From Bacteroidales bacterium (GTDB lineage: Bacteria; Bacteroidota; Bacteroidia; Bacteroidales; Prolixibacteraceae), in NCBI GenBank assembly GCA_031285325.1, contig JAITWJ010000090.1, forward strand, positions 1-57,975: a stretch of 57,975 nt of DNA. Reading direction: 5' to 3'. The position numbers were made by a program, and so were the translations under genes. Within the stretch, counting starts at the first letter, position 1, and each line of letters begins with the position of its first letter. Of the stretch, positions 2,408-49,736 are shown piece by piece. Under the pieces are notes generated by a model, which did no database searches, was not told the origin of the DNA, and was given only the letters and a program-made list of their open reading frames with translations.

Positions 2408-2585
2408 TAAAAAACGGACATTTTTCAACTTTAAGGGCGGGAAAGCATTTAATTTGGAATTAGTCCCAAAGTTTGGGAAGTAAAATATTTAATTGGTAAA
2501 TTTCCCCCAAAAATTGGGGAAAGAATATAATTATTTGGGAAGCCGTCCCAAAGTTTGGGACGAAGAAATAATTAATTGGGGCGGG
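2408..2585 (+). repeat. Right 19-bp flank plus 41-bp-period palindrome array
   Basis: The 19-bp sequence at 2408-2426 is identical to 501-519. After one degenerate unit come three palindromes centred at 2471, 2512 and 2553, exactly 41 bp apart. They are TCCCAAA-G-TTTGGGA, an imperfect CCCCAA/TTGGGG version, and GTCCCAAA-G-TTTGGGAC. Units are 2463-2503, 2504-2544 and 2545-2585, with AT-rich spacers that each contain a TTGG. Between units 1 and 2 an outer T-A pair has become C-G, so pairing is kept. The rest of the gap up to 2759 shows nothing I can assign. Confidence 0.8.
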
Positions 2586-2759
2586 TGTCGCTTCAGCAGG
2601 CAACGCTGCGCTCGCCGTGCGGTTGCGGAAGTATGGCTTCTCATGACAAATAATGAAGGAAAAGATTGTCGGAACTGTAACCGGTTTTATTCATACTTCA
2701 AAATTCTTTCCGTGGCTGGCAGATAATGTACGATTAAATAACCTTATCACAGTGCTGTA

Positions 2760-3497
2760 TTAGCAGTCTGTAATATATCTCTCAATTTCTTTTAAAGTTA
2801 TCCGGTTCTCATAAATGGCTTTACCTGTAATTGCACATGGTAATTTCATTTCATTTAGTTTCAATATGTCTTTCATAGATGCTATACCACCACTGGCAAT
2901 GATTTCTATTTCAGGAAACATTTTCATTATTTCGGAATAAAGGTCGAATGCAGGACCGGAAAGCATACCATCACGACTAATATCGGTTGAAATTATTTTT
3001 TTAACTCCTTCTTTATGAAACTCTGAAATAAAATCAATAATCGGCAGTTCGGTAACTTCGAGCCAACCATTTACGGCAATTTTACCATCTTTTGCATCGG
3101 CGCCTAATATAATTTTTTCATTACCATATTTTTCGAGCCACTGCAAAAATGTATCTTTCTCTTTTACTGCTATACTTCCGCCGGTTATCATAGCTGCGCC
3201 AGAGTTAAATGCAATTTCCAAATCGTTATATGATTTCAATCCACCGCTAAAATCAATTACAAGGCTTGTTTTTTTTGCAATGGTTTCGAGTACTTTATAA
3301 TTAACGATGTGTTTTGCTTTTGCCCCATCTAAATCAACCAAATGCAATCGTCTAACCCCGGCAGTTTCGAACATGATGGCCACTTCGAGCGGGTTCTCGT
3401 TATAAATTGTTTTTTTGTTGTAATCGCCTTGTGCAAGCCTGACACACTTTCCCTCAATAATATCTATGGCAGGAATGATCTCTGTTTTTTTTTTCAT
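2760..3497 (-). CDS. hisA: Phosphoribosylformimino-5-aminoimidazole carboxamide ribotide isomerase (histidine synthesis)
   Basis: This 245-residue protein is a full-length HisA (beta/alpha)8 barrel. It catalyses the Amadori rearrangement of ProFAR to PRFAR in cytoplasmic histidine synthesis. Visible landmarks are [15 protein letters not shown] with the first catalytic Asp (D12), GADAKDG with the second (D134), T171-D172 in ISTDISRDG, and the phosphate-binding loops ASGGI and ITGKAIYE. It is the last gene of the leftward pro/arg run, 93 bases after argF'. No other his gene is in the window, so this hisA is separated from the usual his operon. It may be co-transcribed with the pro/arg genes, or it may have its own promoter in the 93-base gap. 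Confidence 0.95.
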
Positions 3498-3590
3498 TTT
3501 TTATAAATTTCATTTTTGTGAAAGCAGAAACAATTGTAATGAGCAATAAATATTACGGTATTTTTAATAATAAATTTTGTGCACAACTTT

Positions 3591-4538
3591 CTAAATATCT
3601 TCCAAAATCATTTTTAATACTGCCTGTGCAGCCACCAAGCGGTTTGCGGCTTGTGGTATAACAATTGAATTTTCGCCGTCAATAACACTGTCGGTTACAA
3701 TAACGTTACGCCTTACAGGTAAGCAGTGCATAAACTTTGCGTTGTTGGTGAGCGCCATTTTTTCGCCGTCAACTGTCCACGAAAAATCTTTTGAAAGTAT
3801 CTGTCCGTAATTTGTATATGACGACCAGTTTTTTGCATAAATAAAATCAGCTCCTTCAAATGCTTTCTTTTGATTGTATTCCACTTTTACATCGCCCATA
3901 AATTCCGGAGCAAGTTCATAACCTTTGGGGTGGGTAACCACTAAATCGTAGTTCGCTTCACGCATCCATTCTACAAACGAATTTGGCACAGCCTGCGGCA
4001 AAACAAATGGGTGTGGCGCCCATGTTAAAACAACTTTGGGCTTTTTTTGAGTTTTGTACTCCTCAATTGTGAGTAAATCGGCAAAACTCTGCAACGGATG
4101 GCGAGTTGACGCTTCCATACTAACAATAGGAACACCGGCATATTTAATAAATTGGTTCAGAATTTTTTCGGAATAATCAGTTTCCCTATCCTGAAATTTT
4201 GCGAAAGAACGTACTCCTATAATATCGCAGTACGAACCAATAACAGGAATAGCTTCTTTCAGGTGTTCAGGTTTGTCTCCATCCATTATTACGCCGAGTT
4301 CCGATTCAAGTTTCCAGCCGTCTTCGTTTACGTTCATAACCATAGTGTTCATGCCTAAATTCATGGCAGCTTTTTGTGTGCTTAAACGGGTACGCAAACT
4401 CGAATTAAAAAATACAAGAACCATGGTTTTATTATGCCCAAGATGCTGATATCCGAATGGGGTTTGCTTTACACTAAAAGCTACATCAAGCGCCTGGCGT
4501 AAATTGGGAATATCTTTAACTGAAATAAAATTTCGCAT
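3591..4538 (-). CDS. argF': N-succinylornithine carbamoyltransferase (arginine synthesis)
   Basis: This 315-residue transcarbamylase belongs to the branch that carbamoylates N-acylated ornithine instead of ornithine. Carbamoyl-phosphate binding is marked by FFNSSLRTRLS in place of the classical STRTR. HPLQSFADLLT and HCLPVRRN are also present. In the Bacteroides fragilis enzyme a proline at position 90 selects N-succinyl-L-ornithine, where the Xanthomonas enzyme has a glutamate and uses N-acetylornithine. Here residue 90 is Pro (DGDKPEHLKEA), which predicts succinylornithine as substrate. The gene follows proA after 19 bases, so proline and arginine steps that both draw on glutamate are together. 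Confidence 0.92.
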   Translation of the reverse strand: MRNFISVKDIPNLRQALDVAFSVKQTPFGYQHLGHNKTMVLVFFNSSLRTRLSTQKAAMNLGMNTMVMNVNEDGWKLESELGVIMDGDKPEHLKEAIPVIGSYCDIIGVRSFAKFQDRETDYSEKILNQFIKYAGVPIVSMEASTRHPLQSFADLLTIEEYKTQKKPKVVLTWAPHPFVLPQAVPNSFVEWMREANYDLVVTHPKGYELAPEFMGDVKVEYNQKKAFEGADFIYAKNWSSYTNYGQILSKDFSWTVDGEKMALTNNAKFMHCLPVRRNVIVTDSVIDGENSIVIPQAANRLVAAQAVLKMILEDI

Positions 4539-4557
4539 TTTTAATTTATTTATATTA

Positions 4558-5814
4558 TTATTTTGATCTTATTTGTCCATGTCCTTCGATAATCCATTTG
4601 TAACTTGTTAATTCTTCAAGTGCCATAGGTCCTCGTGCATGTAATTTCTGTGTGCTGATACCAATCTCGGCTCCTAACCCAAACTGAGAGCCGTCTGTAA
4701 AAGCTGTTGATGCATTAGAATATACAGAAGAAGCATCAATTATTTTTTTGAAATTCTCAATATTTTCAGAGTTCTCTGAAATAATTGCTTCACTATGTTT
4801 CGATGAATATTTATTTATATGATTTATTGCTTCATTAAACGAAGCAACTGTTTTCACAGACATTTTCATAGAAAGGAATTCTGTTCCGAACGACTCATCT
4901 GTTGCATGGAAGAGTAATTTTTCAGGATAATTTCCTTGTAACTTGGAATACGATTTTTCATCGGCATAAATCATAACATTTTCTTCGGAGAGTTTTTTTC
5001 CAAAAACCGGCAATTCGGCCAAGCGGCTTTCATGAATAATTAAACAGTCGAGTGTATTACAAACCGACGGACGGCGTGTTTTTGCATTGAAAATAATTTC
5101 GCAGCCTTTTCCTGCATCACCAAATTCGTCGAAATATGTATGACAAATTCCAGCTCCTGTTTCAATAATAGGAATTGTTGCATTTTCGCGCACAAAATTT
5201 ATTAAAGCTTGGCTTCCACGCGGAATAATCAGGTCGATATACTTACGGGCACGAAGCATTTCGTTGGTTTCTTCGCGTCCGGCAGGCAGTAAAGCAACTG
5301 TATTTTCATCTATGTGATATTTTTTCAGCACATCCCTAATAATTGCTACAATAGCCTGGTTTGAATAAAAAGCATCACTGCCTCCTTTTAGCACGCAGGC
5401 ATTCCCCGATTTCAAACAAAGGGTAAAAACATCGAAAGTAACATTCGGGCGGGCTTCATAAATAATACCTATTACCCCAAATGGCACAGTTATCTTACTT
5501 ATTATTAATCCATTCGGACGAACAGTTTCTTTCAAAACCTTTCCTACCGGACTTTCCATTCGGGCTACATTCCTGATATCAAAAGCAATTCCTTTAATTC
5601 TGTCTTCAGTTAATTTAAGCCTGTCTAATTTAGGATCTTCCTTATCCATGCGGTCTAAATCTTTCTTATTTTCCGCCAAAATGTAAGCAGAATTATTTTC
5701 TGCATGATCTGCAAGCTCAACAAGTAAAGCCTCAATAGTATCATTTTCAACTAAATTCAGTTTTCGTGATGCTTCAAGCACTTTTTGAAGTTGTATTTCA
5801 ATGTTCATATTCAC
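4558..5814 (-). CDS. proA: Glutamate-5-semialdehyde dehydrogenase (proline synthesis)
   Basis: This 418-residue protein is the NADPH-dependent reductase that turns glutamyl-5-phosphate into glutamate-5-semialdehyde. The aldehyde dehydrogenase fold shows [16 protein letters not shown] and [13 protein letters not shown] in the cofactor domain. The active-site cysteine lies in [13 protein letters not shown]. The C-terminal [16 protein letters not shown] is typical of ProA. The length is normal. It begins 3 bases after proB ends, so the two are almost certainly co-transcribed and probably translationally coupled. ProB and ProA act in sequence on an unstable intermediate. Confidence 0.97.
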
Positions 5815-5817
5815 AAT

Positions 5818-6909
5818 TTATTTTTCCATATATAAATAGTCATAATGTATCAATGGTCTTTGTTTTTTGGAATTTGTGTCCGATTTAATTTTATCGGAAC
5901 TGTATTGAGCTTTACCAACACCAACAACATTACCGGTTTCATCAATAATTTTTATTAAATCACCTTTTTTAAATTCGCTTATAATTTCAACTACACCAAC
6001 AGGCAACAGGCTTACTGCCGTATCAGAAACCAGCGCTTTTAACGCTCCTTGGTTTATCATAACCTGTCCTTTTGTAAAACTTTCTGAATATCCGATCCAT
6101 TTTTTTATGCCGCTCGATGGCTTTTTATTTGGCACAAAATAAGTATGCTGAAATTCTTTTTCAAGATCGAGCAGATGTATCAGTACATTTTCAACCGTAC
6201 CATTAGCAATATGAACACCAATTCCGTCGCCGGCCACTTTCCTCGCTATACGCAGTTTAGTATGCATGCCACCACGGCCAAATGTTGACTGCCCTGATGT
6301 TGTTACTACATTTCCGTTCTCAAAATCGTCAAAATCTATTTTTCTTATTAATTCAGCATTTTCTTTTTGCGGATGAATATTATATACACCATTCACATTA
6401 GAAAGAATTATCAATGCTTCCGAGTTTACCATTGAAGCTATTAAGCCCGAAAGTTCATCGTTGTCGGTAAACATGAGTTCTGTAACCGAAATAGTATCAT
6501 TTTCATTTACAATAGGCAGTACTCTATTTTCGAGCAATGTGTTAAAGCAGTTTTTCATGTTCAGGTAGTGAGTGCGGTCAGAAAAATTTTCTTTAGTGGT
6601 TAAAACCTGTGCACAAACCAATCCGTGTTCACTAAAAAAATTGGAATAACGGCTTATAAGTTTTACTTGACCAAGTGCTGCCCACAGTTGGCGCTGCGAC
6701 ACAGCATCTGTTTTTTTTGCAGGTTCAAAAATTGCTCTTCCTGCGGCCACTGCTCCGGAAGAAACCAAAACCACCTCAACTCCATGTTTGTGAAGAAAAG
6801 TAATTTGATCTACTAAATGGGCAATATGCGACACATTCAATGTTCCATCGGGTTTAGTCAAAACATTGCTACCAATTTTTATTGTTATTTTTTTATAGCG
6901 AAACTGCAT
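5818..6909 (-). CDS. proB: Glutamate 5-kinase with PUA domain (proline synthesis)
   Basis: This 363-residue protein phosphorylates glutamate, the committed and usually proline-inhibited step of proline synthesis. The amino acid kinase domain (about residues 1-255) shows KIGSNVLTKPDG, VSSGAVAAGR, NENDTISV and GRGGMHTKLRIARKV. A PUA domain occupies about residues 275-355 (KGQVMINQGALKALV and so on), as in the long E. coli-type enzyme. The gene starts 6 bases after proC and ends 3 bases before proA, in a tight leftward operon. Confidence 0.97.
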   Translation of the reverse strand: MQFRYKKITIKIGSNVLTKPDGTLNVSHIAHLVDQITFLHKHGVEVVLVSSGAVAAGRAIFEPAKKTDAVSQRQLWAALGQVKLISRYSNFFSEHGLVCAQVLTTKENFSDRTHYLNMKNCFNTLLENRVLPIVNENDTISVTELMFTDNDELSGLIASMVNSEALIILSNVNGVYNIHPQKENAELIRKIDFDDFENGNVVTTSGQSTFGRGGMHTKLRIARKVAGDGIGVHIANGTVENVLIHLLDLEKEFQHTYFVPNKKPSSGIKKWIGYSESFTKGQVMINQGALKALVSDTAVSLLPVGVVEIISEFKKGDLIKIIDETGNVVGVGKAQYSSDKIKSDTNSKKQRPLIHYDYLYMEK

Positions 6910-6915
6910 TTTAAA

Positions 6916-7719
6916 CTATTTTCCTTTATTTTCAATTTTACCGTACGATGCCAGTATTCCCTGAATAAGTGACGAACTGAACCCATTGTGTTCCATCTCA
7001 TTTAATCCGGTAATTGTAACCCCGCGCGGAGTTGTAACTTTATCTATTTCAGTTTCGGGATGACAGCCATTCTGTAAAATTAATTCTGTTGCGCCTTTTA
7101 TGGTTTGTGCAGTTATAAACTGAGCCATTTCGGCGCCGAATCCAATTTCAACACCACCTTGCATGGCTGCTCTTATATAACGCAGCGCATAAGCAATTCC
7201 ACACGACGAAAGTACAGTTGCCGCCGCCATTAATTCTTCCGGTATTTCAATTGTTTTACCGAGTTTATTAAACATATCAGTTACAAAAGCCTTATGTTCC
7301 GACACTTTACTATTTGAAGAAATACACGTAAGCGACTCCTGCAAAGCAACAGCTGTGTTTGGCATAACTCTGAAAATTGAGATATTTTCGCCTGCCATTT
7401 TTTCCAAATCGCAAATTTCGACACCGGCTGCAATAGAAATAACAATTTTATCGGGAGTTAGATAAGCTTTTATATTTTTTACCACACTTTCTATATGGTA
7501 CGGTTTTACTGCCAAAATAACTACATCTGCATTCTGTACGGCAATACTGTTGTTTCCGCAGGCAACAACACCAATGTTTTCCATTTTTCTGAGGTTTTTT
7601 TCGCTCGGATCGGATATTAGAACACCAGAAACGGGTATAAATCCCGATTTCAACAAACCGGCAACTATTGCTCCTCCCATATTTCCCACGCCTATTACTG
7701 CAATTTTTTTGTATTTCAT
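6916..7719 (-). CDS. proC: Pyrroline-5-carboxylate reductase (proline synthesis)
   Basis: This 267-residue protein carries out the last step of proline synthesis, NAD(P)H-dependent reduction of pyrroline-5-carboxylate. The N-terminal Rossmann fold shows IAVIGVGNMGGAIVAGLL, followed by VILAVKPYHIE. IFRVMPNTAVAL and the C-terminal VTTPRGVTITGLNEME are ProC signatures. It is the first gene of the leftward proC-proB-proA-argF'-hisA run. The upstream leader may be over 300 bases if the promoter proposed at 8045-8076 is used. That leader contains a repeat and a short remnant reading frame. Confidence 0.96.
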   Translation of the reverse strand: MKYKKIAVIGVGNMGGAIVAGLLKSGFIPVSGVLISDPSEKNLRKMENIGVVACGNNSIAVQNADVVILAVKPYHIESVVKNIKAYLTPDKIVISIAAGVEICDLEKMAGENISIFRVMPNTAVALQESLTCISSNSKVSEHKAFVTDMFNKLGKTIEIPEELMAAATVLSSCGIAYALRYIRAAMQGGVEIGFGAEMAQFITAQTIKGATELILQNGCHPETEIDKVTTPRGVTITGLNEMEHNGFSSSLIQGILASYGKIENKGK

Positions 7720-7738
7720 TTTTGTTATTCTGTTTTTT

Positions 7739-7795
7739 ACCTCTAAATCCCATAAAGGGGACTTTCCTACCTCCTCTTTTAAAGAGGCAGGGGTA
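7739..7795 (+). repeat. GC-rich intergenic repeat (CCCTAAAGGGGACTT-type), copy 1
   Basis: The stretch reads CTCTAAATCCCATAAAGGGG and then ACTTTCC, a gap, CTTTTAAAGAGG and CAGGGG. It is a diverged copy of the repeat at 49621-49688 and, in reverse, 57875-57945. A truncated copy is at 33637-33660. It lies just upstream of proC. Confidence 0.55.
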
Positions 7796-7821
7796 TTTAT
7801 TTTCTAATTAATAACTGACGA

Positions 7822-7935
7822 TTAAACATTAAGGTTTACCACAGCAAAACTGTTTACAAGGTTTACAAAGTCTTCGCAAAACTGGAAGTGCTCGTTGTTG
7901 CGAAAACGGCTAATATATATTTTTCCTATTTTCAT
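7822..7935 (-). pseudogene. Short reading frame, probable DUF6261-type remnant
   Basis: A 37-codon frame starts MKIGKIYISRFRNNEHFQF and ends VNLNV before TAA. The RFRNNEHFQF stretch looks like the N-terminus of a Bacteroidota-specific family of about 230 residues that I know as DUF6261. That assignment is from memory and uncertain. If right, this is the first sixth of such a gene left in the leader of the pro operon. It could instead be a short leader peptide, but it is not rich in proline, arginine or histidine codons. The remaining gap 7936-8257 holds a possible promoter and nothing else recognisable. Confidence 0.4.
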
Positions 7936-8044
7936 GCTTTTGTTTTTAAATTGTTTAATACCGAATTAATGTTTCGAAAGTACCGCAAGTACCACACTGC
8001 GGGTGGAGGGTGGTTTGTTATGTGTACCGGTATTCATTCTGACG

Positions 8045-8076
8045 CTAAGGTATGTTAAAAATAATTGAACGGCAAA
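8045..8076 (-). promoter_or_regulatory. Putative promoter for leftward transcription into the pro operon
   Basis: On the minus strand TTTG (8076-8073), a 20-base spacer and TACCTTAG (8052-8045) match the Bacteroidota promoter with one deviation in the -7 box. It points towards the short remnant frame and proC, with a leader of about 310 bases. Confidence 0.45.
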
Positions 8077-8257
8077 ATTCAAGATATGTTTTGTGCTTCG
8101 CACTACTGTAAAAGGGTTTTTATGATGCAAATTCTAAAATTAAACAAACTACAAGTCAAGAATAATTAATATTTTACAGAACAAAAATAATAATATAACA
8201 GATTTATTTTTTTATTAATTTTGAAATTCGTAAACATTTCAATAAATAACAACGCAT

Positions 8258-9241
8258 TTGGAAAAACAAATTTACCTTGAAGGAGTTGATCCGCTTGAGT
8301 TCTACGGAATCAATAACACGAAGATAAACCTTATTAAAAAACTGTTTCCCAGGATAAACATTGCAGCTCGCGGCCAGTCGCTTTTTGTTCAGGGCGAGGA
8401 AAAGGAAATCGAGTTGTTCGAAAAAAAAATTATTATTATGCTCGGCCATTTTGTTCAGTTTAATATTCTAACTGAAGAAACCATATTTGAAATAATAGAA
8501 TCGGGAGTTTCATCGTTAGAAGACGATGTAGTAACCGGCGAATCCGACATAATTGTTTTCGGTAATTCGGGTAAACCGGTGCGTGCCCGCACACCAAACC
8601 AGCGCTGTCTGGTGGACGAAAGTTTTGAGAATGACCTTATTTTTGCGATAGGCCCCGCCGGAACAGGAAAAACATATACGGCCATTGCATTAGCAGTGAG
8701 GGCACTGAAAAACAAGGAAATAAAGAAAATAATACTAAGCCGTCCGGCAGTAGAAGCAGGTGAGAATCTTGGGTTTTTACCGGGTGACCTGAAAGAAAAG
8801 ATCGACCCTTATTTGCAGCCTCTATACGACGCGCTACAGGATATGATTCACCCAAAAAAGTTAGAAGAGTTTATGAAAGACGGTGTAATACAGATTGCAC
8901 CATTGGCTTTTATGCGTGGAAGAACATTGAGCAACGCCTATGTTATACTTGATGAAGCACAAAATACCACAATAAACCAGTTAAAAATGTTCCTTACTCG
9001 TATGGGACACAACACCAAATTTATTGTTACCGGCGATGTAACACAAATAGACCTACCGCAAAAAAGCCAGTCGGGGCTTCTACATGCACTGAAAATACTG
9101 AAAAAGATAAAATCTATCTCTATCGTACAGTTCAACAAAAAAGATATTGTGCGGCACCCTTTGGTTCGCGATATTGTTGAAGCCTACGAGAAACATACAG
9201 AGGCAAAAATAGCCGGAAGGGCTATTCAAAAAAATGAATAA
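8258..9241 (+). CDS. phoH: PhoH family ATPase
   Basis: This 327-residue protein is a PhoH-type P-loop NTPase. Walker A is GPAGTGKT (132-139) and Walker B is VILDEAQN (229-236), with LSRPAVEAGENLGFLPGD between them. The first 70 residues form the small KH-like N-terminal region seen in PhoH/YbeZ proteins. The family is linked to RNA metabolism and phosphate stress, but its exact role is unsettled. The start is a TTG; the in-frame TAA at 8243-8245 and the family-like N-terminus leave no better choice. The neighbour downstream is purC. Confidence 0.92.
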   Translation: MEKQIYLEGVDPLEFYGINNTKINLIKKLFPRINIAARGQSLFVQGEEKEIELFEKKIIIMLGHFVQFNILTEETIFEIIESGVSSLEDDVVTGESDIIVFGNSGKPVRARTPNQRCLVDESFENDLIFAIGPAGTGKTYTAIALAVRALKNKEIKKIILSRPAVEAGENLGFLPGDLKEKIDPYLQPLYDALQDMIHPKKLEEFMKDGVIQIAPLAFMRGRTLSNAYVILDEAQNTTINQLKMFLTRMGHNTKFIVTGDVTQIDLPQKSQSGLLHALKILKKIKSISIVQFNKKDIVRHPLVRDIVEAYEKHTEAKIAGRAIQKNE

Positions 9242-9356
9242 GAGAAATAAACGTATGAATTACATTACTGTTAACTTAAGAAGAACCGATAAAAACATAT
9301 TTTGCAGGCAAATATCAATAATATATCAGTAACCAAACAAAAACAAACATAATATT

Positions 9357-10316: not shown

Positions 10317-10354
10317 AATTGATTATTTAATATAAAATCACTAATTCAATAAAA

Positions 10355-10651: not shown

Positions 10652-10657
10652 CAATTT

Positions 10658-11056: not shown

Positions 11057-11071
11057 AAATTATAACGGCAA

Positions 11072-12409: not shown

Positions 12410-12413
12410 TGTA

Positions 12414-13445: not shown

Positions 13446-13464
13446 AGGTATATTGTAATTTTAG

Positions 13465-13530
13465 AAACTGTTTTGAATTTATCGGATATTTTTTTTTGAG
13501 CCACTGAACTGTTTCGTGGTAGTTTCTCAA
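13465..13530 (+). repeat. Solo left end of the AAACTGTTTTGAATTT element (element A)
   Basis: Positions 13465-13480 read AAACTGTTTTGAATTT. They are followed by TATCGGATATTTTTTTTTGA and then GAACTGTTTCGTGG. This matches about 60 bp of the left ends of elements C and D. No matching right end or tandem array is found before coaD, so this is a solo or truncated copy. The following 13531-13630 contains GCGAGCTTGCGAAGCC and AT-rich TGTCAA repeats, also like parts of C and D. Confidence 0.65.
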
Positions 13531-13668: not shown

Positions 13669-13683
13669 AACAAAAGTTTCGAC

Positions 13684-14169: not shown

Positions 14170-14185
14170 AACTCAGTACATGTGT

Positions 14186-24666: not shown

Positions 24667-24730
24667 ACACTATCCAAAGATAAAACCTGTTAAATTGAAA
24701 ATCTGATATGAATAATATTATTATTCATAC

Positions 24731-24960
24731 GGAATAGCGTATATTCTATATTGAATAATGCATATTCTTGACAGAATACTGTATATTCTATATGGATTTA
24801 TGAATATTCTTAATGGAATTACGTATATTATATATTGATTATTGCATATTCTTCATGGAATACTGTATATTCTATATATATTTATGAATATTCTTGATGA
24901 AATTATGTATATTCTATATTGATTATCGTATATTATTCATTGGATATGCATTATTATACA
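24731..24960. repeat. AT-rich tandem repeat, 42-bp period made of two 21-bp halves
   Basis: Units begin at 24731, 24773, 24815, 24857 and 24899, exactly 42 bp apart, with a partial sixth at 24941. Each unit has two related 21-bp halves, for example GGAATACTGTATATTCTATA and GGATTTATGAATATTCTTAA. The halves contain small inverted repeats (GAATA/TATTC, GAATATTC). It fills the gap between the convergent folD and POT transporter genes. The rest of the gap (24667-24730, 24961-24987) shows only an AATAATATTATT palindrome at 24711-24722. Confidence 0.85.
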
Positions 24961-28041: not shown

Positions 28042-28098
28042 TACTGCATAATGAATATTTATTATGTTTTGCACACAAAATTTGCCCTCGCAAATAAG

Positions 28099-28357
28099 AA
28101 ACTGTTTCTAATTTGTCAAATAAGTTTCCGGAAGTTCCCGCTACCCTGCCCGACCCCTCGGGGAACCTTTCGGGAGTTTCCGCTACCATGTTCGAGCCCT
28201 CGGGGAGCCTTTCGGGAAGTTCCGCTACCCTACCCGACCCCTCAGGGAACCTTTCGGAAGTTCCCGCTACCATGTTCGAGCCCTCGGGGAGCCTTTCGGG
28301 AGTTTCCGCTACCTGTTTCGAGGGTAAAACATTTGTCAGGTAAATTCAAAACAGTTT
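28099..28357. repeat. Element B: inverted-terminal-repeat element with a 42-bp GC-rich palindrome array
   Basis: The left end reads AAACTGTTTCTAATTTGTC and the right end AAATTCAAAACAGTTT (28342-28357), an imperfect terminal inverted repeat. Inside, four units of 42 bp start at 28139, 28181, 28223 and 28265, with an 84-bp super-period. Units 1 and 3 carry CCCGACCCCTC.GGG; units 2 and 4 carry TTCGAGCCCTCGGGG. Each has a short inverted repeat. Because 42 is divisible by 3, several frames are open across it. The rest of the gap to priA (28358-28517) shows nothing I can assign. Confidence 0.85.
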
Positions 28358-28517
28358 CTAACATGTGAAATCAATGTTACACTATTTTAACATATTCTCG
28401 GCACTACCATTAATTTGACACATATAAATACCTCGTATTATTAAATTCTCTTAAATCTGCAATTAATTGGTAAAATTTTTATTCGCTAAATTAAGGTATC
28501 TCGTTTTTTGAGTTACA

Positions 28518-32938: not shown

Positions 32939-33559
32939 GTGAGGGCAGTTAAAATATTTAAATACTTTTTCTTTCTGATATTTTTGTTGGTTACAAACAA
33001 AGGCCTGCATGCACAGATAGTTGATGCCGATACTACGGCAGTGGTCGTAAAAAATATAAATACAGAAAAAATACATTCACCCAGTAAGGCAGCTAAATAT
33101 TCAACCATATTACCAGGGCTGGGACAAGCATACAATAAAAAATATTGGAAAATACCTTTAGTTTACATTGGTTTTGGTACAATTGGCTATTTCACTAATT
33201 GGAACAACAACCAATATAAATTCATGAAAACATGTTATATCCACCTTAATGACAGTGATGAAACTACAACAGATTACCTGAAATTAAAAGGAACTGATAG
33301 GTTCAATTTTAATAACGAGAGTGATGTTAAATATGTAAATTCAATAATAATAAAACGGCAGGCTGTTTTTAAGAGGAGCCGCGACTTGCTTATTATAAGC
33401 ATGTTTGCCTTTTATGCATTAAATATTATAGATGCAAGTGTTGATGCACACCTATTTAATTTCGACATAGGAGACGACTTAACTATGGATTGGCAGCCGT
33501 CAATGTATAATATCAACAAAGAACCGGCATATTGTATTAATTTTTCTTTAAAGTTCTAA
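32939..33559 (+). CDS. DUF5683 membrane or envelope protein
   Basis: This 206-residue protein opens with a hydrophobic signal (about 7-25, FKYFFFLIFLLVTNKGLHAQ), suggesting export. The conserved part SKAAKYSTILPGLGQAYNKK followed by YWKIPLVYIGFGTIGYF is the DUF5683 signature. It probably contains two further hydrophobic segments. The function is unknown. In Bacteroidota it commonly follows parAB and precedes a LysM transglycosylase. Here that order is interrupted by element C and a lipoprotein gene. The start is a GTG at 32939, with no better ATG. Element C begins 1 base after its TAA. Confidence 0.85.
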   Translation: MRAVKIFKYFFFLIFLLVTNKGLHAQIVDADTTAVVVKNINTEKIHSPSKAAKYSTILPGLGQAYNKKYWKIPLVYIGFGTIGYFTNWNNNQYKFMKTCYIHLNDSDETTTDYLKLKGTDRFNFNNESDVKYVNSIIIKRQAVFKRSRDLLIISMFAFYALNIIDASVDAHLFNFDIGDDLTMDWQPSMYNINKEPAYCINFSLKF

Positions 33560-33560
33560 G

Positions 33561-33986
33561 AATCTGTTTTGAATTTACCTGATAAGTTTTTTTTGACTCC
33601 CTCCACGAACTGTTTCACGATTGACACTTGACAGTTATTAACCCCTAAATCCCCTGAAAAGTAATTGACAGTTAATTAACAATATCAATTGTCCATTATA
33701 AATGATCAATTATTAGGGGACAGAAGGTGATTTCTTTCATATTAAGTTAATTTACATATTTATATTTAGTGATTTTTGTTGTTGCTAAGGCTTAGCAAGC
33801 CGTGAATCGTGCGATTTGGTTGTTGCTAAAGTTTAGCAAGCGGTGAATCGTATGATTTGGTTGTTGCTAAGGCTTAGCAAGTCGTAATCCGTGTAGTTTG
33901 GCTGTTACCGTCATCTTTGTGGGGGCAATGCACGAAGCAATCCGGAGCAATTATCTTTCACTGTTTCCTGAAATTCAAAACAGTTT
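33561..33986. repeat. Element C: inverted-terminal-repeat element with a 41-bp palindrome array
   Basis: The left end AATCTGTTTTGAATTTACC and right end AAATTCAAAACAGTTT (33971-33986) form a 15/16-matched terminal inverted repeat. The inner left part GAACTGTTTCACG is shared with elements A and D. A truncated copy of the CCCTAAATCCCC repeat lies at 33637-33660. Three 41-bp units start at 33782, 33823 and 33864, each opening with a 17-bp palindrome. Unit 1 is TTGCTAAG-G-CTTAGCAA; unit 2 is TTGCTAAA-G-TTTAGCAA, a compensated change. The tail CCGTCATCTTTG is shared with element D. Confidence 0.88.
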
Positions 33987-34023
33987 ATAAAAGAACAAAA
34001 TTCCTTTTTTAATTTAATGTTGT

Positions 34024-38623: not shown

Positions 38624-38631
38624 AAAACATT

Positions 38632-39084: not shown

Positions 39085-39242
39085 TACTTAATATTCTATG
39101 CAAATAAAAACAACATTACTTCTTTTCCGCTTATTCGTTTTTTAAAATATTTTGGGTAAAACCTGAAAATTTCAACCAATGCATATTTGAATATGTTTTG
39201 AATTTGTTGTTTTAATCGAGAAAGACGAATAATAAACACATT

Positions 39243-40244: not shown

Positions 40245-40339
40245 TATTTATTTCTTATTATAATAGATATACTGCAAAAATATATTTTCATCCGGAAAAT
40301 GACGTGATAAGAAAGTCTGATATTTAAAATTTAATAGAA

Positions 40340-41671: not shown

Positions 41672-41749
41672 TATTTGAATTTGAGGCGCGATTTTACAAA
41701 AAATATGTAAATTCAGCAATTGTTTAACTGGAAATTCACAGGATAATTT

Positions 41750-42613: not shown

Positions 42614-42751
42614 ATTACAAATATAAAACTCAAATCAACCCCAATATCTTGTATTTTTATATTTTATCAACTTTGGGTGTTAATATTTGGGAAATTTTTA
42701 TCATATTGAGGTTTCTTTGCAAAAATTATTCTTGTTGCATAAATTATAGAT

Positions 42752-43405
42752 ATGAATTTGAACAACGGATTGCGTTATGAAGGAATGCGAAAGAAGTTGG
42801 TTGACGGCTTAAAAATAAAAGGAATTCGAAACGAAAAAGTTGTGGAAGCAATTCGGAAAGTTCCAAGGCATTTGTTTATGGAGAGCACTTTTATTAATTT
42901 TGCATATAAAGACCAAGCTTTTCCTATTGGTGCTGGGCAAACAATATCGCAACCATATACTGTAGCTTTTCAAACACAACTTCTTCAAGTAAAAAAAAAT
43001 GATAAAATCCTCGAAATTGGTACTGGTTCAGGTTATCAAACGGCTGTTTTGTGTGAACTGGGAGCAAAAGTCTTTACAGTTGAAAGACAAAAAGAACTAT
43101 ATGTCAAGGCTCAGGGTTTTTTACCGGAAATAGGATATAATCCGGCTTGCTTCTTTGGCGATGGCTACAAAGGGTTACCGGCTTTTGCTCCATTCGACAA
43201 AATCCTGGTTACTGCTGGTGCTCCAACTGTTCCCGAAAATTTTAAACAACAACTTAAAATAGGAGGCAGATTGGTTATTCCAGTAGGCAACGAAAAACAT
43301 CAAGATATGTTATTGATTATAAGAACAACGGAAGAAGACTATAAAATAGAAAAATGTGGAAGTTTTGTTTTTGTACCTTTGTTGAGTGGAACTGTTAATT
43401 TCTAA
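42752..43405 (+). CDS. pcm: Protein-L-isoaspartate O-methyltransferase
   Basis: This 217-residue enzyme methylates L-isoaspartyl residues in aged proteins, starting their repair. IRKVPRHLFMESTFINFAYK, FPIGAGQTISQPYTVAFQTQ and the S-adenosylmethionine motif LEIGTGSGYQTAVLCELG are present, as is DKILVTAGAPTVPENF. Length is normal. The MBL hydrolase gene starts 4 bases after its stop, so they form an operon. Confidence 0.95.
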   Translation: MNLNNGLRYEGMRKKLVDGLKIKGIRNEKVVEAIRKVPRHLFMESTFINFAYKDQAFPIGAGQTISQPYTVAFQTQLLQVKKNDKILEIGTGSGYQTAVLCELGAKVFTVERQKELYVKAQGFLPEIGYNPACFFGDGYKGLPAFAPFDKILVTAGAPTVPENFKQQLKIGGRLVIPVGNEKHQDMLLIIRTTEEDYKIEKCGSFVFVPLLSGTVNF

Positions 43406-43409
43406 CCTT

Positions 43410-44054
43410 ATGATTACAATTAAAAAATTTGTTGTAAACCCAATCGACGAAAATTCTTTTGTTATATCCGACAGTACAGGCGAATGTGTTTTCATCGACC
43501 CCGGTTTTTATTATGATAAAGAATTATCTGAAATCAGTAATTATATAACTATAAACAATTTAAATCCGGTAAAAATTTTAAGTACTCATTGTCATTTCGA
43601 CCATATTATGGGAGTTGAATTTATACGTGAAAAATACAAAATACCATTTCAGGTACATAAAGACGACACATTTTTGATTGAACGGGCAATTAAACAAGCG
43701 AACATGTTTGGATGTAAAATGAATCCTTTAAAACCTGTTGATTCATTTATTGAAGAAGGCGATAAAGTATCATTTGGCAACACCGAACTCGAAATAATTC
43801 ACGTTCCTGGGCATTCTCCGGGGCATTTAATTTTTTACAACAGTGATGAAAACTTCATAATTGCCGGCGATGTACTATTTCGCGGCAGCATCGGGCGTAC
43901 CGATTTGCCTGGTGGAAGTGGAAATTACAATGACCTTATTTCTAATATAAAAAATAAAATGTTTTCTCTTCCGGATGAAACAAAAGTTTACTGTGGGCAC
44001 GGCCATGAAACCACTATAGGTTTTGAAAAAAATACAAATCCGTTTTTTAACTAA
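43410..44054 (+). CDS. MBL-fold hydrolase, glyoxalase II-like
   Basis: This 214-residue protein has the metallo-beta-lactamase zinc motif THCHFDHIMG. Further ligands lie in VPGHSPGHLIFY and AGDVLFRGSIGRTDL, and the closing motif is YCGHGHETTIGFEK. It probably hydrolyses a thioester or a related bond. Homologues are annotated as hydroxyacylglutathione hydrolase-like, but the true substrate is unknown. The ATG at 43410 is chosen; an in-frame GTG at 43386 lies inside pcm. Confidence 0.88.
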   Translation: MITIKKFVVNPIDENSFVISDSTGECVFIDPGFYYDKELSEISNYITINNLNPVKILSTHCHFDHIMGVEFIREKYKIPFQVHKDDTFLIERAIKQANMFGCKMNPLKPVDSFIEEGDKVSFGNTELEIIHVPGHSPGHLIFYNSDENFIIAGDVLFRGSIGRTDLPGGSGNYNDLISNIKNKMFSLPDETKVYCGHGHETTIGFEKNTNPFFN

Positions 44055-44139
44055 CTTTGAATTAATTATTGTAAATATTTTTTCTGACTTTTACACGTTT
44101 TTTAAAATTGCATAAAATTCAAATATTAAATATCATAAA

Positions 44140-47022
44140 ATGCTATACGATAATTTTGCAAACAGGCATATTGGGCCAAGAGAGAACGAAATAAATGAAA
44201 TGCTTAAATTAATCGGGGTTTCAACTCTCAATGAATTAATAGAACAAACAGTTCCTGCCGGTATAAGATTACACGAACCATTAAAATTACAGGATGTATT
44301 GACTGAACGACAGTATTACCGTAAAATTTTGAGTATTGCCGCCAAAAATAAAGTATTCAATACGTATATCGGAATGGGATACTATGACACAATTACTCCT
44401 GCAGTTATCATACGTAATGTATTTGAAAATCCTGTATGGTACACTTCATACACACCTTATCAGGCCGAAATTTCTCAAGGTCGCCTCGAAGCGCTGTTAA
44501 ATTACCAAACCATGATTTGCGAACTTACAGGGATGGAAATTGCAAATGCATCGCTGCTTGACGAAGCAACTGCCGCTGCTGAGGCTATGGTGATGATGAT
44601 GAACCTGCGTACAAAGCAAATGATAAAAAACGAAGTGAATGTAGTTTTAGTCGATGAAAAAATATGGCCACAAACTCACGATGTTTTAAGAACACGCGCA
44701 TTCCCACTTGGAATCGAGCTACGTATTCAGGCAAGGGAAAATTTTGAATTTACCAATGATATTTTTGGCATTATTGTACAATACCCAAATTCTGACGGTG
44801 AAATTACTGATTATTCCGATTTGGTTAAAACAGCCCATGAAAAAGAAATAAAAGTTGCCGTAGCTACCGATTTACTTTCATTGGCAATTTTAATTCCGCC
44901 AGGGGAATGGGATGCTGATATTGTTTTTGGAAACAGTCAGCGCTTTGGTATCCCGATGGGCTACGGGGGTCCACACGCAGCTTTTTTTGCTACACGCGAT
45001 GAGTTTAAACGAAGTATGCCGGGGAGAATTATAGGTGTTTCCAAAGATGTTCATGGGAACAAGGCATTACGTATGGCACTTCAAATACGCGAACAACATA
45101 TTAAACGCGAAAAAGCCACTTCAAATATATGTACAGCACAGGCATTACTTGCAACAATGGCAGGTTTTTTTGGCGTATATCATGGACAAGAAGGAATTAA
45201 AAACATTGCTTCGCGCATTCACAATATTGCAGCATTTTTAGCAATTGAAATTGAAAAATTGGGGTACAAACAACTGAATACACATTTTTTCGATACAATA
45301 CGGTTTTCGCTCCCAAAATACGTGAAGAGTAAAGATATCATACGGCTTTCACTCGAATTTGAAATAAATTTCAGGTACTTTGAAAACGGTGAAATTGGTA
45401 TTAGTATCGACGAAACAACAAACATCGAAAATATTGCATTGATACTTGAAGTTTTTGCAAAAGTGGCCAATAAAAACCGGCATACAATCAGTGAGTATCC
45501 CAAATACTATTCAATTGATAAAAAATTTGCACGCACTTCGGCATTTATGAAACAAGAAGTCTTCAACAAATACAGATCAGAAACCGACATATTACGGTAT
45601 ATAAAAAACTTGGAACATAAAGATATTTCTCTTACTCATTCGATGATACCTCTTGGTTCGTGTACAATGAAACTAAGCGCCGCATTGGAAATGATTCCTC
45701 TTAGTTGGATTGAATTTAATGGCATTCACCCTTTTGTACCTAAAAATCAAGCATGTGGTTACCATGAAATTATTGAAGAACTAAGGCATGATTTGGCTGA
45801 AATTACAGGTATGGCAGATGTTAGTTTAATGCCTAATTCGGGTGCTGCCGGCGAATATGCAGGTTTAATGGTAATTCAGGCATACCATATAAGCAAGGGA
45901 GAAGGACATCGCAATACTGTATTAATTCCTTCATCGGCACATGGCACCAACCCTGCAAGCGCAGTAATGGCAGGGTTGAAAACAGTTGTGGTTGCCTGCA
46001 ACGAAAAAGGTAATATTGATTTGGAAGATATTAAACTGAAAGCCGAAAAATATAAAGATACATTATCGTCATTAATGATTACATATCCCTCAACGCATGG
46101 TGTTTTTGAATCATCTGTTATTGATATATGTGATGTTATTCACAAAAATGGCGGACAGGTTTATATGGATGGCGCCAATATGAATGCTCAGGTTGGCTTA
46201 ACTTCACCGAAAATTATCGGTGCCGATGTTTGTCATCTTAACCTTCATAAAACATTTGCAATTCCGCATGGTGGCGGCGGCCCTGGAGTTGGGCCTATTG
46301 CTGTTGCCGGTCATCTCGTTGGTTTTTTACCCTCGCATTCGGTTATTAACAACGGACATACAGGTGTGAATACTGTTTCTGCAGCTCCGTGGGGCAGTGC
46401 TTCAATTTTGGCCGTAACCTACGGATATATTAAAATGATGGGCGCACATGGCTTAACCAAAGCAACAAAACTTGCCATTTTGAATGCAAATTACATTGCA
46501 AAAGCACTTGAAAAAAATTTTGGAGTTTTATACACCGGCAAACAAGGGCGTATTGCTCACGAAATGATACTCGAATGTAAGCATTTTAAAACGACTTCGG
46601 GAATTACCGAAGAAGATATTGCCAAAAGGTTAATGGATTATGGGTTTCATGCTCCTACTCTTTCGTTTCCGGTTCGTGGAACTTTAATGGTTGAACCAAC
46701 AGAAAGCGAATCGAAAGCTGAACTCGACAGATTTATTGACGCCATGAATTCAATTTATAATGAAATAAAGGAAATTGAAGAAAACATAGCAGACAAATTA
46801 GATAATGTTTTAAAAAATGCACCTCACACCACTGAAGTTGTTTGCGCCGACAAATGGGAACATTCTTATTCGAGAGAAAAAGCAGCATTCCCTTTAGAAT
46901 GGGTTAAAGAAAACAAATATTGGGTACCGGTAAGCCGAATTGACAACGCCTGGGGAGACAGAAACCTGATTTGTACCTGTGGTACGCCTGAAGAATATAA
47001 ACAATTAATTAAACAAGAATAA
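44140..47022 (+). CDS. gcvP: Glycine dehydrogenase (P protein of the glycine cleavage system)
   Basis: This 960-residue pyridoxal-phosphate enzyme decarboxylates glycine and passes the aminomethyl group to the H protein. It is the fused form, with both the N-terminal and C-terminal halves that some bacteria encode separately. FANRHIGPRENEINEMLKLI opens it. The PLP lysine is in HLNLHKTFAIPHGGGGPG. The gcvT and gcvH genes are not in the window. No glycine riboswitch is seen in the 85-base gap upstream. ispE starts 15 bases downstream. Confidence 0.97.
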   Translation: MLYDNFANRHIGPRENEINEMLKLIGVSTLNELIEQTVPAGIRLHEPLKLQDVLTERQYYRKILSIAAKNKVFNTYIGMGYYDTITPAVIIRNVFENPVWYTSYTPYQAEISQGRLEALLNYQTMICELTGMEIANASLLDEATAAAEAMVMMMNLRTKQMIKNEVNVVLVDEKIWPQTHDVLRTRAFPLGIELRIQARENFEFTNDIFGIIVQYPNSDGEITDYSDLVKTAHEKEIKVAVATDLLSLAILIPPGEWDADIVFGNSQRFGIPMGYGGPHAAFFATRDEFKRSMPGRIIGVSKDVHGNKALRMALQIREQHIKREKATSNICTAQALLATMAGFFGVYHGQEGIKNIASRIHNIAAFLAIEIEKLGYKQLNTHFFDTIRFSLPKYVKSKDIIRLSLEFEINFRYFENGEIGISIDETTNIENIALILEVFAKVANKNRHTISEYPKYYSIDKKFARTSAFMKQEVFNKYRSETDILRYIKNLEHKDISLTHSMIPLGSCTMKLSAALEMIPLSWIEFNGIHPFVPKNQACGYHEIIEELRHDLAEITGMADVSLMPNSGAAGEYAGLMVIQAYHISKGEGHRNTVLIPSSAHGTNPASAVMAGLKTVVVACNEKGNIDLEDIKLKAEKYKDTLSSLMITYPSTHGVFESSVIDICDVIHKNGGQVYMDGANMNAQVGLTSPKIIGADVCHLNLHKTFAIPHGGGGPGVGPIAVAGHLVGFLPSHSVINNGHTGVNTVSAAPWGSASILAVTYGYIKMMGAHGLTKATKLAILNANYIAKALEKNFGVLYTGKQGRIAHEMILECKHFKTTSGITEEDIAKRLMDYGFHAPTLSFPVRGTLMVEPTESESKAELDRFIDAMNSIYNEIKEIEENIADKLDNVLKNAPHTTEVVCADKWEHSYSREKAAFPLEWVKENKYWVPVSRIDNAWGDRNLICTCGTPEEYKQLIKQE

Positions 47023-47037
47023 TTCATTCTGTAATAT

Positions 47038-47844
47038 ATGATTGTTTTTCCGAACGCGAAAATAAATATCGGACTGAATGTGGTGTCAAAACGTTGTGAC
47101 GGTTATCATAACATAGAAACTGTATTTTATCCGCTAAAATTGTATGATGTGCTTGAGTTTGTTGTTGCAGAAAAAACCGAACTTTCAGTAACAGGTATTA
47201 AAATTGATGAAAACCCAGACAATAACCTTGTTTTAAAAGCATATCGAGTTTTAAAAAAACATTTCAATCTTCCTGAAATAAAATTTCATTTACAAAAAAA
47301 CATACCATTTTGCGCTGGTTTGGGGGGTGGTTCGTCCGATGCGGCATTTACGCTTAAGGCTTTAAATTTATTTTTAAACCTCGGTATCTCTGAAGAAAAA
47401 TTAAAAGATTACGCAACAATGGCAGGAGCCGATTGCCCTTTTTTTATTGAAAACAAACCGGCTTTTGCAACAGAAACGGGCAATAAATTAACGCCTGTAA
47501 ATATAGAACTTGCACAGTACAAAATAGTAATTCTAAAACCTCCTGTAGAAGTAAGTACTCTCAATGCATACAAAAATATTTCTCCTGTAAAACCAGATTT
47601 CAATTTAAAAAATTTGTGCAATTTACCTGTTGAAAAATGGAAAGAAACCGTTACCAACGATTTCGAAAAATATGTTTTTAGAGTTTTTCCTGTAGTTCGG
47701 GAGTTAAAAGAAAAACTTTATGAAGCGGGAGCATTATATGCATCTATGTCTGGCAGCGGCTCTGCTGTTTACGGTATTTTTAGCCGTTTACCGGTAAATT
47801 TCGAAAAACTTATACCCAAAGGTATTTTAATTTATCAGGTATAA
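47038..47844 (+). CDS. ispE: 4-diphosphocytidyl-2-C-methyl-D-erythritol kinase (isoprenoid synthesis)
   Basis: This 268-residue GHMP kinase phosphorylates CDP-ME in the MEP pathway. FPNAKINIGLNVVSKRCDGY at the start carries the catalytic-site Lys and N. The ATP loop is PFCAGLGGGSSDAAFTL and the third GHMP motif is ASMSGSGSAVYGIF. Length is normal. It follows gcvP after 15 bases and was probably transcribed with it. Confidence 0.96.
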   Translation: MIVFPNAKINIGLNVVSKRCDGYHNIETVFYPLKLYDVLEFVVAEKTELSVTGIKIDENPDNNLVLKAYRVLKKHFNLPEIKFHLQKNIPFCAGLGGGSSDAAFTLKALNLFLNLGISEEKLKDYATMAGADCPFFIENKPAFATETGNKLTPVNIELAQYKIVILKPPVEVSTLNAYKNISPVKPDFNLKNLCNLPVEKWKETVTNDFEKYVFRVFPVVRELKEKLYEAGALYASMSGSGSAVYGIFSRLPVNFEKLIPKGILIYQV

Positions 47845-47923
47845 AACGTTTGGTTAATTTGATTCTTTTTATTTCGTGCTTTTTTGTTTCTTTATGAATC
47901 TAAATTCAATAAAAAGTAAGTAA

Positions 47924-49126
47924 ATGCTGCAATTAAAAGTACCACTAATTATTACTGTTTTTACTTGTATTTCATTTTTGGGATTATCTCAACCGTTTCA
48001 ACTTTCCGAAAATGCTGAAATAAGTGTTCTGACTTGTGCTCCCGGTAACGAAGTTTACTCAGTTTATGGGCATTCTGCTTTTCGTGTAAAAGATACTCTA
48101 TATAATTACGACATGGTTTTCAACTATGGAATTTTCGATTTCAGCACGCCAAATTTTGTGTACAGATTTGCTGCAGGGCAAACCGATTATTTATTAGGAG
48201 CAAATAAATTCGATGTTTTTCTTGATAGTTATATTCATGAAAACAGAAGTATTTTCGAGCAGGTTCTAAATTTAACACATACCTCAAAACAAAAGATTTT
48301 TGAATTTCTGATTTGGAATGCACAACCCGAAAACCGTGTTTACAGGTATAATTTCTTTTTTGACAATTGTGCTTCTCGAATACGCGACGTAATTGAACAA
48401 CAGATTGAAACCAAAGTGGTTTTCACGAATCAACCTGAAGAGTCAAAAACCTTCCGTCAACTTATAAAAATTTATCACTCGAAGTTATTATGGCTGAACT
48501 TTGGAGTTGATTTGGTAGTATCGGCGCCGGCAGACAAAATTGCTTCTGTTTCCGAAGAAATGTTTCTACCTGATTATGTAATGAAACATTTTTCAACTGC
48601 AACAATTAACACACACGAAGGAGAAAAACCTTTAGTAAAATCTTCGCAAGTGATTTTTCAGGCGGCGCAAACAGATTTCAAAAGTTTAAAAATTATAAGC
48701 CCGTTTTCCATATTTGGGCTATTGTTTCTATTTGTACTTTCAATTTCTGTTTGGCAACTAATAAAAGGCAAAATTTCTGCCTGGCCAGATTATTTGGTTT
48801 ATAGTATTACCGGATTAACAGGAACAATAATGTTGTGGTTTGTTTTATTTTCCGAACATCCGGCAATGAGTCCTAATTACAACATAATGTGGGCTGTTCC
48901 TGTGAATATTGTTTTCGCCATTTTGTGGAAAGTAAAGAAATGGCGCCCAAAACTTCAATATTATCACGTAATAATTTCGTGTTGGCTTATTTTGTTTATG
49001 TTAACCGAATTGTTTTTACCACAGAAATTTCATCCGGTACATATTCTTTTTGTTTTTATGATTTTAAGCCGTTCAATTTTGTACAGTATCTTTATTTTTA
49101 AAAAGAAACCATTAAATTATTTATGA
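47924..49126 (+). CDS. DUF4105 membrane protein
   Basis: This 400-residue protein has a signal peptide (about 1-22). A DUF4105 domain at about 30-215 shows VLTCAPGNEVYSVYGHSAFR and YNFFFDNCASRIRDVIE, with conserved His and Cys residues suggesting a hydrolase-like active site. Four or five C-terminal membrane segments lie at about 262-395. The domain is presumably periplasmic. The function is not established. Element D starts 14 bases after its stop. Confidence 0.85.
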   Translation: MLQLKVPLIITVFTCISFLGLSQPFQLSENAEISVLTCAPGNEVYSVYGHSAFRVKDTLYNYDMVFNYGIFDFSTPNFVYRFAAGQTDYLLGANKFDVFLDSYIHENRSIFEQVLNLTHTSKQKIFEFLIWNAQPENRVYRYNFFFDNCASRIRDVIEQQIETKVVFTNQPEESKTFRQLIKIYHSKLLWLNFGVDLVVSAPADKIASVSEEMFLPDYVMKHFSTATINTHEGEKPLVKSSQVIFQAAQTDFKSLKIISPFSIFGLLFLFVLSISVWQLIKGKISAWPDYLVYSITGLTGTIMLWFVLFSEHPAMSPNYNIMWAVPVNIVFAILWKVKKWRPKLQYYHVIISCWLILFMLTELFLPQKFHPVHILFVFMILSRSILYSIFIFKKKPLNYL

Positions 49127-49140
49127 AACACGAAAAAATA

Positions 49141-49736
49141 AAACTGTTTTGAATTTACCGGACAGGTTTTTTTTGACCCCCCTTCCATGAACTGTTTCGC
49201 GGTGGTTTCACACACGCCGGAACGCCGGTGTAAAACTCGAAGTGCCCTGCGTTTTGCAGGTTGTGCAAATTGATTTTTACCCTTTTCATTGGTTTTAGAT
49301 TTTATTGTTATAGGTAAATTTTGCTTTTTGGTGTTTGCATCGTTGATGCAAGGGGTAAAATCATCGTTTTGGCATTTGCATCGCTGATGCAAGAGGTAAA
49401 ATCATCATTTTGGCATTTGCATCGCTGATGCAAGGGGTAAAATCATCGTTTTGGCATTTACATCGCTGATGCAAGGGGCAAAATCATCGTTTTGATGTTT
49501 GCATCGTTGATGCAAGGGGTAAAATCGTCATTTTAGTCATTGTATCCCTGCCGTCATCTTTGCAAACTGCGAGATTGCGAAGCGGGAAGTAATCCATAGC
49601 AATTAATAATTGATAGTTATTTACTCCTGAATCCCCCGAAAGGGACTTCGCCACCCAACTGTTCCCCTTTAGGGGAGCGGGGGGTAATTATCAATACTAA
49701 TTGTCTGTCTGTGTTTTCTGAAATTCAAAACAGTTT
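49141..49736. repeat. Element D: inverted-terminal-repeat element with five 41-bp palindrome units
   Basis: The left end AAACTGTTTTGAATTT (49141-49156) and right end AAATTCAAAACAGTTT (49721-49736) are exact 16-bp inverted repeats. Five 41-bp units start at 49334, 49375, 49416, 49457 and 49498; each opens with TTTGCATC, GCT or GTT, and GATGCAA, followed by about 24 bp ending in TTTTGG. Downstream lie CCGTCATCTTTG and GCGAAGCGGGAAGTAATCC, then a copy of the GC-rich repeat (49621-49688). No credible gene is present in the whole gap. Confidence 0.9.
49621..49688 (+). repeat. GC-rich intergenic repeat, copy inside element D
   Basis: The stretch reads TTACTCCTGAATCCCCCGAA, AGGGACTT, then CACCCAACTGTTCCCCTTTA and GGGGAGCGGGGGG. 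It matches the reverse complement of 57875-57945 over most of its length and, more loosely, 7739-7795. It is nested within the right part of element D. Confidence 0.65.

Follow-up and report, generated by a model that had tools for sequence, protein, structure and literature searches.

What are the rows of short palindromes that recur between the genes of contig JAITWJ010000090.1, and to what do they belong? The window analysed here is this whole stretch of 57,975 nt, contig C139 of a genome (G000) that comprises 2.16 Mb in 149 contigs and is rated 96.7% complete; judged by ParB, its closest named relatives are three records of Maribellus (Prolixibacteraceae), with identities of 72-73%. An earlier note, made from the letters of the window, had described the palindromes as dispersed intergenic arrays with a fixed 41-42-bp period. 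It missed the link to genes: the arrays form the upstream portion of genes for DUF6261 (PF19775), a protein family without known function, and of a second family of small genes. Repeats of 41-42 bp, often palindromic, make up an array that very probably forms a two-part unit with a gene for a small protein, mostly DUF6261. Across the phylum array and gene are found paired again and again, the array sequences being unrelated but their pitch and place the same. In the window's own genome array copies that lack a working gene are scattered, many of them within ends like those of miniature inverted-repeat transposable elements (MITEs), and the arrays of the window look like such copies.

A class of intergenic arrays with a fixed pitch

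Direct reading of the letters bore out the palindromes centred at 2471, 2512 and 2553, the 41-bp units that start at 33782 and, for the array placed at 49334 by the earlier note, five 41-bp units that start at 49335. The array placed at 28139-28306 likewise consists of 42-bp units, which lie within 28125-28322. Tandem Repeats Finder (TRF) called three of these four arrays in the window, with periods of 41, 41 and 42; the array at 2463 was not among its calls in the window, yet it matches arrays of the same type on contigs C45, C99 and C102. TRF also called a fifth array, at 24706, which had been overlooked. Two paired changes within arrays, said to preserve symmetry, are present as described: C2505-G2519, and the change of the arms from TTGCTAAG/CTTAGCAA to TTGCTAAA/TTTAGCAA. 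The likeness reported between the spacers of the arrays at 33782 and 49334 reflects their membership of one family, named TTGC here.

If the arrays were a coincidence of ordinary tandem repeats, a wider scan should have found no more of them. In a 584-kb sample of the genome (the window and loci L009-L048), in which TRF arrays of at least 70 bp were counted, there were 36, so coincidence is not supported. Their smallest periods were 42 (12 arrays), 41 (10), 21 (10), 20 (2), 23 (1) and 35 (1); thus 32 of the 36 had a smallest period of 21, 41 or 42. All but two (34/36) lay outside open reading frames (ORFs) of at least 150 aa, though such ORFs make up 78% of the sample. The main family has a 17-bp palindrome, TTGC-N9-GCAA, and a 24-bp spacer at a 41-bp pitch, which is the 17 + 24 bp layout that had been claimed for the 41-bp arrays. 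In the whole genome, 90 pairs of this palindrome were found at gaps of 8-38 bases, and the gap was exactly 24 in 88 of them; the reversed-pattern control gave none. A collection of 27 TTGC arrays with 144 units (119 from the window's genome, the others from genomes G038 and G623) gave 115 of 117 steps of exactly 41 bp, the other two being 42, with steps of 40-42 permitted by the collector.

Arrays precede DUF6261 genes

When all arrays are turned to face the same way, a start codon follows several of them. On contig C6 the gene downstream of an array is intact and encodes a 245-aa DUF6261 protein (E = 1.8e-34). A search of the genome with this protein gave four full-length copies and three fragments, and each of the four intact genes has an upstream array; the four arrays are of four sequence types. 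The partner genes belong to this family with scores above the curated Pfam cut-off. The gathering score for DUF6261 was passed by the four proteins of this genome and by one from G038, with E values from 1.7e-29 to 5.4e-37.

The same arrangement was found in relatives, in the order and in the phylum. Among 61 genomes of relatives, 27 have DUF6261, and 70 genes were examined: 30 listed loci (the gene on contig C69 of the window's genome included) and 40 from the upper part of the match list, lower-scoring matches being omitted. TRF found an upstream array at 46 of the 70, with smallest periods of 42 (26 genes), 41 (16), 20 (2), 22 (1) and 23 (1). Any array downstream was found at six of the 70, three of them with a 42-bp period, and all three belong to a 225-aa subfamily of DUF6261 marked by MILT-NLSGL, in which genes L161, L185 and L196 (three of six) are followed, at a distance of 156-203 bp, by an array of 42-bp period. 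In the order, 25 of 247 genomes have DUF6261, and 28 new loci gave 17 upstream arrays with smallest periods of 41 (13), 42 (3) and 43 (1). A row of period 41-43 is present at all 63 genes with a TRF array, 46 from the relatives and 17 from the order.

Three of the 35 genes that lacked a TRF array were dropped (two shorter than 215 aa, one with a short flank), and the other 32 were given a lag test, in which the best self-match lag between 25 and 69 was sought in the 600 bp upstream of the gene and in its first 600 bp. The best lag was 41-43 in 21 of 32 upstream regions and in one of 32 gene bodies. In the phylum, 12 of 395 genomes have DUF6261, 11 of them above the cut-off. The phylum set of 21 genes comprised 18 new loci, Prevotella nigrescens NZ_CP082843.1 and two unverified phage-labelled gut contigs, and three of its gene starts (L254, L259 and L274) are uncertain; a lag of 41 or 42 was found in 20 of 21 upstream regions and in none of the 21 gene bodies. 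Pooled, 41-43-bp periodicity lies upstream of 104 of 116 DUF6261 genes, compared with one of 53 gene bodies by the same lag test. Kin genes are counted singly in the 104/116, so that no probability is attached to it; the sets span many families.

Between DUF6261 subfamilies the array sequences are unrelated, while pitch and place are kept, and palindromes often so. The arrays have a median of 4.5 copies (1.9-17.4) and end a median of 191 bp (38-550) before the start codon. In the order sample, all four genomes with the TTGC pattern are among the 25 that carry DUF6261; the two other genomes with the pattern, in the phylum sample, have single non-pairing matches and no DUF6261. In P. nigrescens the annotated DUF6261 coding sequence (L274:2327-3280) begins inside a 41-bp array (L274:2212-2394), and its start has probably been called too early. 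Genomes G511, G522, G612 and G621 have at least 14 DUF6261 matches each, 14 being the number of candidates scored, and in G645 contigs C1 and C7 (L248 and L249) share an identical stretch of 12.9 kb around a DUF6261 gene, through a large duplication or an assembly artefact.

The DUF6261 gene is under purifying selection, as shown by values of dN/dS (the ratio of nonsynonymous to synonymous substitution rates) of 0.07-0.28 among the 40 closest pairs listed. An AlphaFold2 model built with 49 aligned members is all-helical (mean predicted local distance difference test score, pLDDT, 91.8; predicted template modelling score, pTM, 0.62). Foldseek with this model found no match at E <= 0.001 in PDB or BFVD, and structure and family searches together (Foldseek, Pfam, PADLOC) gave no known fold or defence family that would explain the protein and no likeness to a known toxin or to a recombinase.

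A second family shares the array design

The array type at 2463 precedes, on contig C45, a gene whose 106-aa product, the one member scanned, has no significant match in Pfam. Four members of this second family, of about 105 aa, are present in the window's genome and one in G042. Arrays of period 21, 41 or 42 lie upstream of three of the four (contigs C45, C62 and C29); TRF found no array at the copy on C58 or at that in G042. The proteins are basic (pI, isoelectric point, 9.5-9.8 in three members from the window's genome), and the members read end in WKE[FY]GI-AKR.

Pairing is kept where sequence is not

In the TTGC family the outer bases of the palindrome are constant in sequence and the inner bases are constant in pairing alone. 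The inner three stem pairs vary by array, with CAC/GTG, GCA/TGC, GGA/TCC, CGA/TCG, AGA/TCT, TAA/TTA, ATC/GAT and ACA/TGT among others. An excess of compensatory change was looked for in 37 distinct units with perfect outer arms, which are not independent but have many stem types: 101 of 111 inner pairs were complementary, whereas in 5000 shuffles the mean was 39 and the highest count 61. Arm pairing thus looks to be maintained.

Of the causes that the earlier note had offered, a hairpin or self-templated correction of the arms is favoured, because inner pairing is kept without sequence and there are more stem types than the four intact DUF6261 genes. A plain symmetric protein site is disfavoured, since a protein that reads the outer bases needs no inner pairing. 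For an RNA hairpin under selection the wobble counts give no sense-RNA signature: among non-standard pairs of the 63 arrays, read in the sense of the gene, there were 51 G-U and 64 A-C.

Across the 63 arrays the longest stem had a mean of 4.1 pairs, compared with 1.6 in shuffles. The mean z score of RNA folding was -3.2 in the sense of the gene and -3.1 in antisense, with 31 and 35 of 49 arrays, respectively, below -2. Of the 63 arrays, 35% have a second dyad at a distance of 18.6-21.6 bp from the first, as against 14% in column shuffles. Loops of 3-4 bases were found in 28 of 42 distinct stems, as against 28% in shuffles, and 12 of these 28 could be longer perfect palindromes.

Orphan arrays and mobility

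The arrays of the window look like orphans of array-gene units, and the features concerned are collected in Table 1. By eye, those at 33769 and 49326 are of the TTGC type found at contigs C6 and C117. The gene side of the 33769 array holds no DUF6261-start-like frame of at least 22 aa. An Rfam scan of the window matched only three tRNAs and gave nothing above the gathering score at the arrays; a tRNA cluster, Gly(GCC)-Leu(TAA)-Gly(GCC), lies at 52537-52798. The genome is 2.16 Mb at 96.7% completeness, and 36 genomes labelled as the same genus span 2.9-7.8 Mb.

Table 1. Arrays, associated frames and repeated units. Coordinates are those of the window unless a locus is given; the strand given for the 33769 array is the one on which a downstream DUF6261 gene would be placed.
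Feature	Position	Strand	Remarks
CCCAAA/TTTGGG-type array, ~41-bp pitch, orphan	2463..2585	.	same type precedes the 106-aa gene on contig C45
AT-rich array, period 21/42/84, orphan	24706..24940	.	between folD and POT transporter; by eye the type preceding the second-family gene on contig C62
42-bp array, orphan	28125..28322	+	between radical SAM gene and priA; by eye the type preceding the intact DUF6261 gene on contig C69
41-bp TTGC array, TTGCTAA stem, orphan	33769..33906	-	right after parA-parB-DUF5683
41-bp TTGC array, TTGCATC stem, five units	49326..49534	-	between Lnb-domain gene and mutS
44-aa ORF, DUF6261-start-like by eye (MKRVKINLHNLQNAGHFEF)	49155..49289	-	directly after 49326 array; remainder of gene missing
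MITE-like unit around 28125 array	28097..28359	.	inverted ends 28097-28114 (+), 28342-28359 (-)
MITE-like unit around 33769 array	33559..33988	.	inverted ends 33559-33576 (+), 33971-33988 (-)
MITE-like unit around 49326 array	49139..49738	.	inverted ends 49139-49156 (+), 49721-49738 (-)
G034 duplicate units	L241:6297-7538 and L242:6245-7483	gene orientation
Second-family loci	L009:768-1088, L237, L238, L239, L240

With at most two mismatches allowed, the genome has 115 matches to the end sequence GAAACTGTTTTGAATTT, compared with four for the reversed control. Such ends flank nine of the 36 arrays on both sides (0.34% at random places) and four on one side (3.9%), three arrays of the window included. 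A lone end sequence, AGAAACTGTTTTGAATTT, lies at window 13463-13480, where TRF finds no array nearby. The flanks of arrays (e.g., L099 and L105; window 57845-57873) are crowded with short interspersed repeats, namely CAATTGACAGTTGATAATT-like runs and CACTGCGAG...CGAAGCA palindromes, of which the latter recall by look the repetitive extragenic palindromes (REPs) with a CGTC tag.

Copying of arrays was also seen in other genomes. In G034 a 1.24-kb unit of array and gene is present in two copies of 98% identity, with the stop codon as right border and no evident inverted ends. A six-unit array occurs twice in G038, with a gene after one copy only. In the pair L153/L169 the arrays measure 298 and 731 bp, and the proteins are 97% identical.

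What the array may do

Each repeat would work as a hairpin or cruciform in which pairing matters and sequence does not. The pitch would correspond to four turns of DNA, and dyads would often fall at every second turn. The array might then act in cis as a phased platform for the neighbouring gene, either setting its expression or engaging its product. The molecule read could be double-stranded DNA, single-stranded DNA or a transcript. We put this phased cis-acting hairpin mechanism forward tentatively; it fits the fixed pitch, the dyads at half the pitch, the symmetry between strands and the pairing without sequence. With similar reserve, we suggest that DUF6261 and the phased array may be an undescribed phylum-wide system in which the protein works with an array recognised by its geometry (pitch and pairing) and not by its sequence, possibly an RNA- or single-stranded-DNA-based regulatory, defence or toxin-antitoxin module, and that the second small family uses the same array design.

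Several results weigh against this account. DUF6261 proteins are mostly acidic (pI <= 6.5 in 85 of 95), unlike a typical nucleic-acid binder. Only 17 of the 63 stems are better than shuffles at p <= 0.05, and the consensus of 21 of the 63 arrays has no stem of at least five pairs. No 41-43-bp lag was found at 12 of the 116 genes; these include all six of the MILT-NLSGL subfamily, none of which has an upstream array. The correlation between protein and array was 0.169, below the top shuffle of 0.191, and the sole promoter motif counted, TAnnTTTG, was only weakly in excess near arrays.

A repeat-RNA partner is the alternative suggested by the order of parts, repeats followed by a solitary gene. 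The array would be transcribed, and perhaps cut to 41-42-nt hairpins that bind the product of the downstream gene and keep it in check, in the manner of the antitoxin RNAs of type III systems. Units of 41-42 with a median of 4.5 copies resemble the 34-36 nt repeated 2.8-5.5 times of the ToxIN family (PMC5086642). The small loops and the duplication of array and gene as one unit in G034 are also in its favour, though 12 of those 28 loops could belong to longer perfect palindromes. Sense-strand G-U is not above A-C, and A-C exceeds G-U at pair positions 7/11 and 8/10 of the TTGC units; the distance from array to start codon and the protein, modelled as all-helical and without a match to known toxins, also argue against such a partner, which we consider unlikely.

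The arrays might instead have no function of their own, tandem duplication and hairpin-templated correction (template switching) producing and keeping the palindromes while a mobile or multicopy gene carries the arrays with it. Inner stems do switch whole within an array while spacers stay alike, and the fast change of array length in the L153/L169 pair and the MITE-like dispersal in the window's genome agree with this. It leaves unexplained why one pitch is found across unrelated sequences and why arrays stand before one gene family and are absent from gene bodies, and we hold it to be rather improbable. That the arrays are substrates of mobility, single-strand hairpin ends that move the unit as in REPs and their associated tyrosine transposases (RAYTs), could account for the array of G038 that occurs once without its gene and for the duplicate of G034 that ends at a stop codon. 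But the window's genome, the richest in arrays, has no Y1_Tnp match and 10 of 12 genomes searched have one; inverted ends explain movement in the window's genome better, and DUF6261 has no likeness to recombinases. We regard mobility as very improbable. The phased cis-acting platform remains our preferred, if tentative, reading.

For DUF6261, so far without a known function, the unit provides a testable partner, with the upstream array as a handle on its role. The array turns over freely in sequence but keeps its pitch and often its arm pairing, an unusual case in which a bacterial non-coding element seems to be conserved in its geometry. The unit also accounts for a class of tandem repeats dispersed through these genomes, as leftovers of array-gene units.

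Comparison with known systems

The literature searched contained no description of arrays upstream of DUF6261, which is not proof that there is none. Clustered regularly interspaced short palindromic repeats (CRISPR) were rejected on spacers alone, which are alike within arrays rather than unique; cas genes were not searched. The arrays resemble REPs, bacterial interspersed mosaic elements (BIMEs) with RAYTs, and CGTC REPs in being intergenic palindromes, clustered and dispersed. Unlike REP/BIME elements, they have a strict head-to-tail pitch of 41-42 bp and are linked to a gene that is not a transposase. What defines a REP is a tag, GTAG or CGTC, on one side of its palindrome (PMC3733652), and the TTGC units read carry neither, so REPs of both kinds were rejected. 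REP/BIME with RAYT was likewise rejected, on the count of Y1_Tnp matches given above. With MITEs the arrays share terminal inverted repeats, between which many of them sit in the window's genome, but at most places examined they have genes and lack such ends.

Type III toxin-antitoxin systems (ToxIN, AbiQ, CptIN) have short tandem repeats that precede a solitary protein gene, as found here, with similar unit length and copy number. To the extent of the tests made, the protein here is a different one; the gap is longer and variable and the turnover of repeat sequence larger. The fold of ToxN differs from an all-helical one. AbiF/Abi_2 is alike in part: it is a toxic protein kept in check by an RNA that carries two repeated motifs (PMC12373285). 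DUF6261 had no match to AbiF/Abi_2 in the Pfam or PADLOC scans. Should one of the rival explanations hold, the unit would fall under the kind to which that rival belongs. In our own judgement no known kind of system matches the unit, either in its protein or in the fixed pitch of its array.

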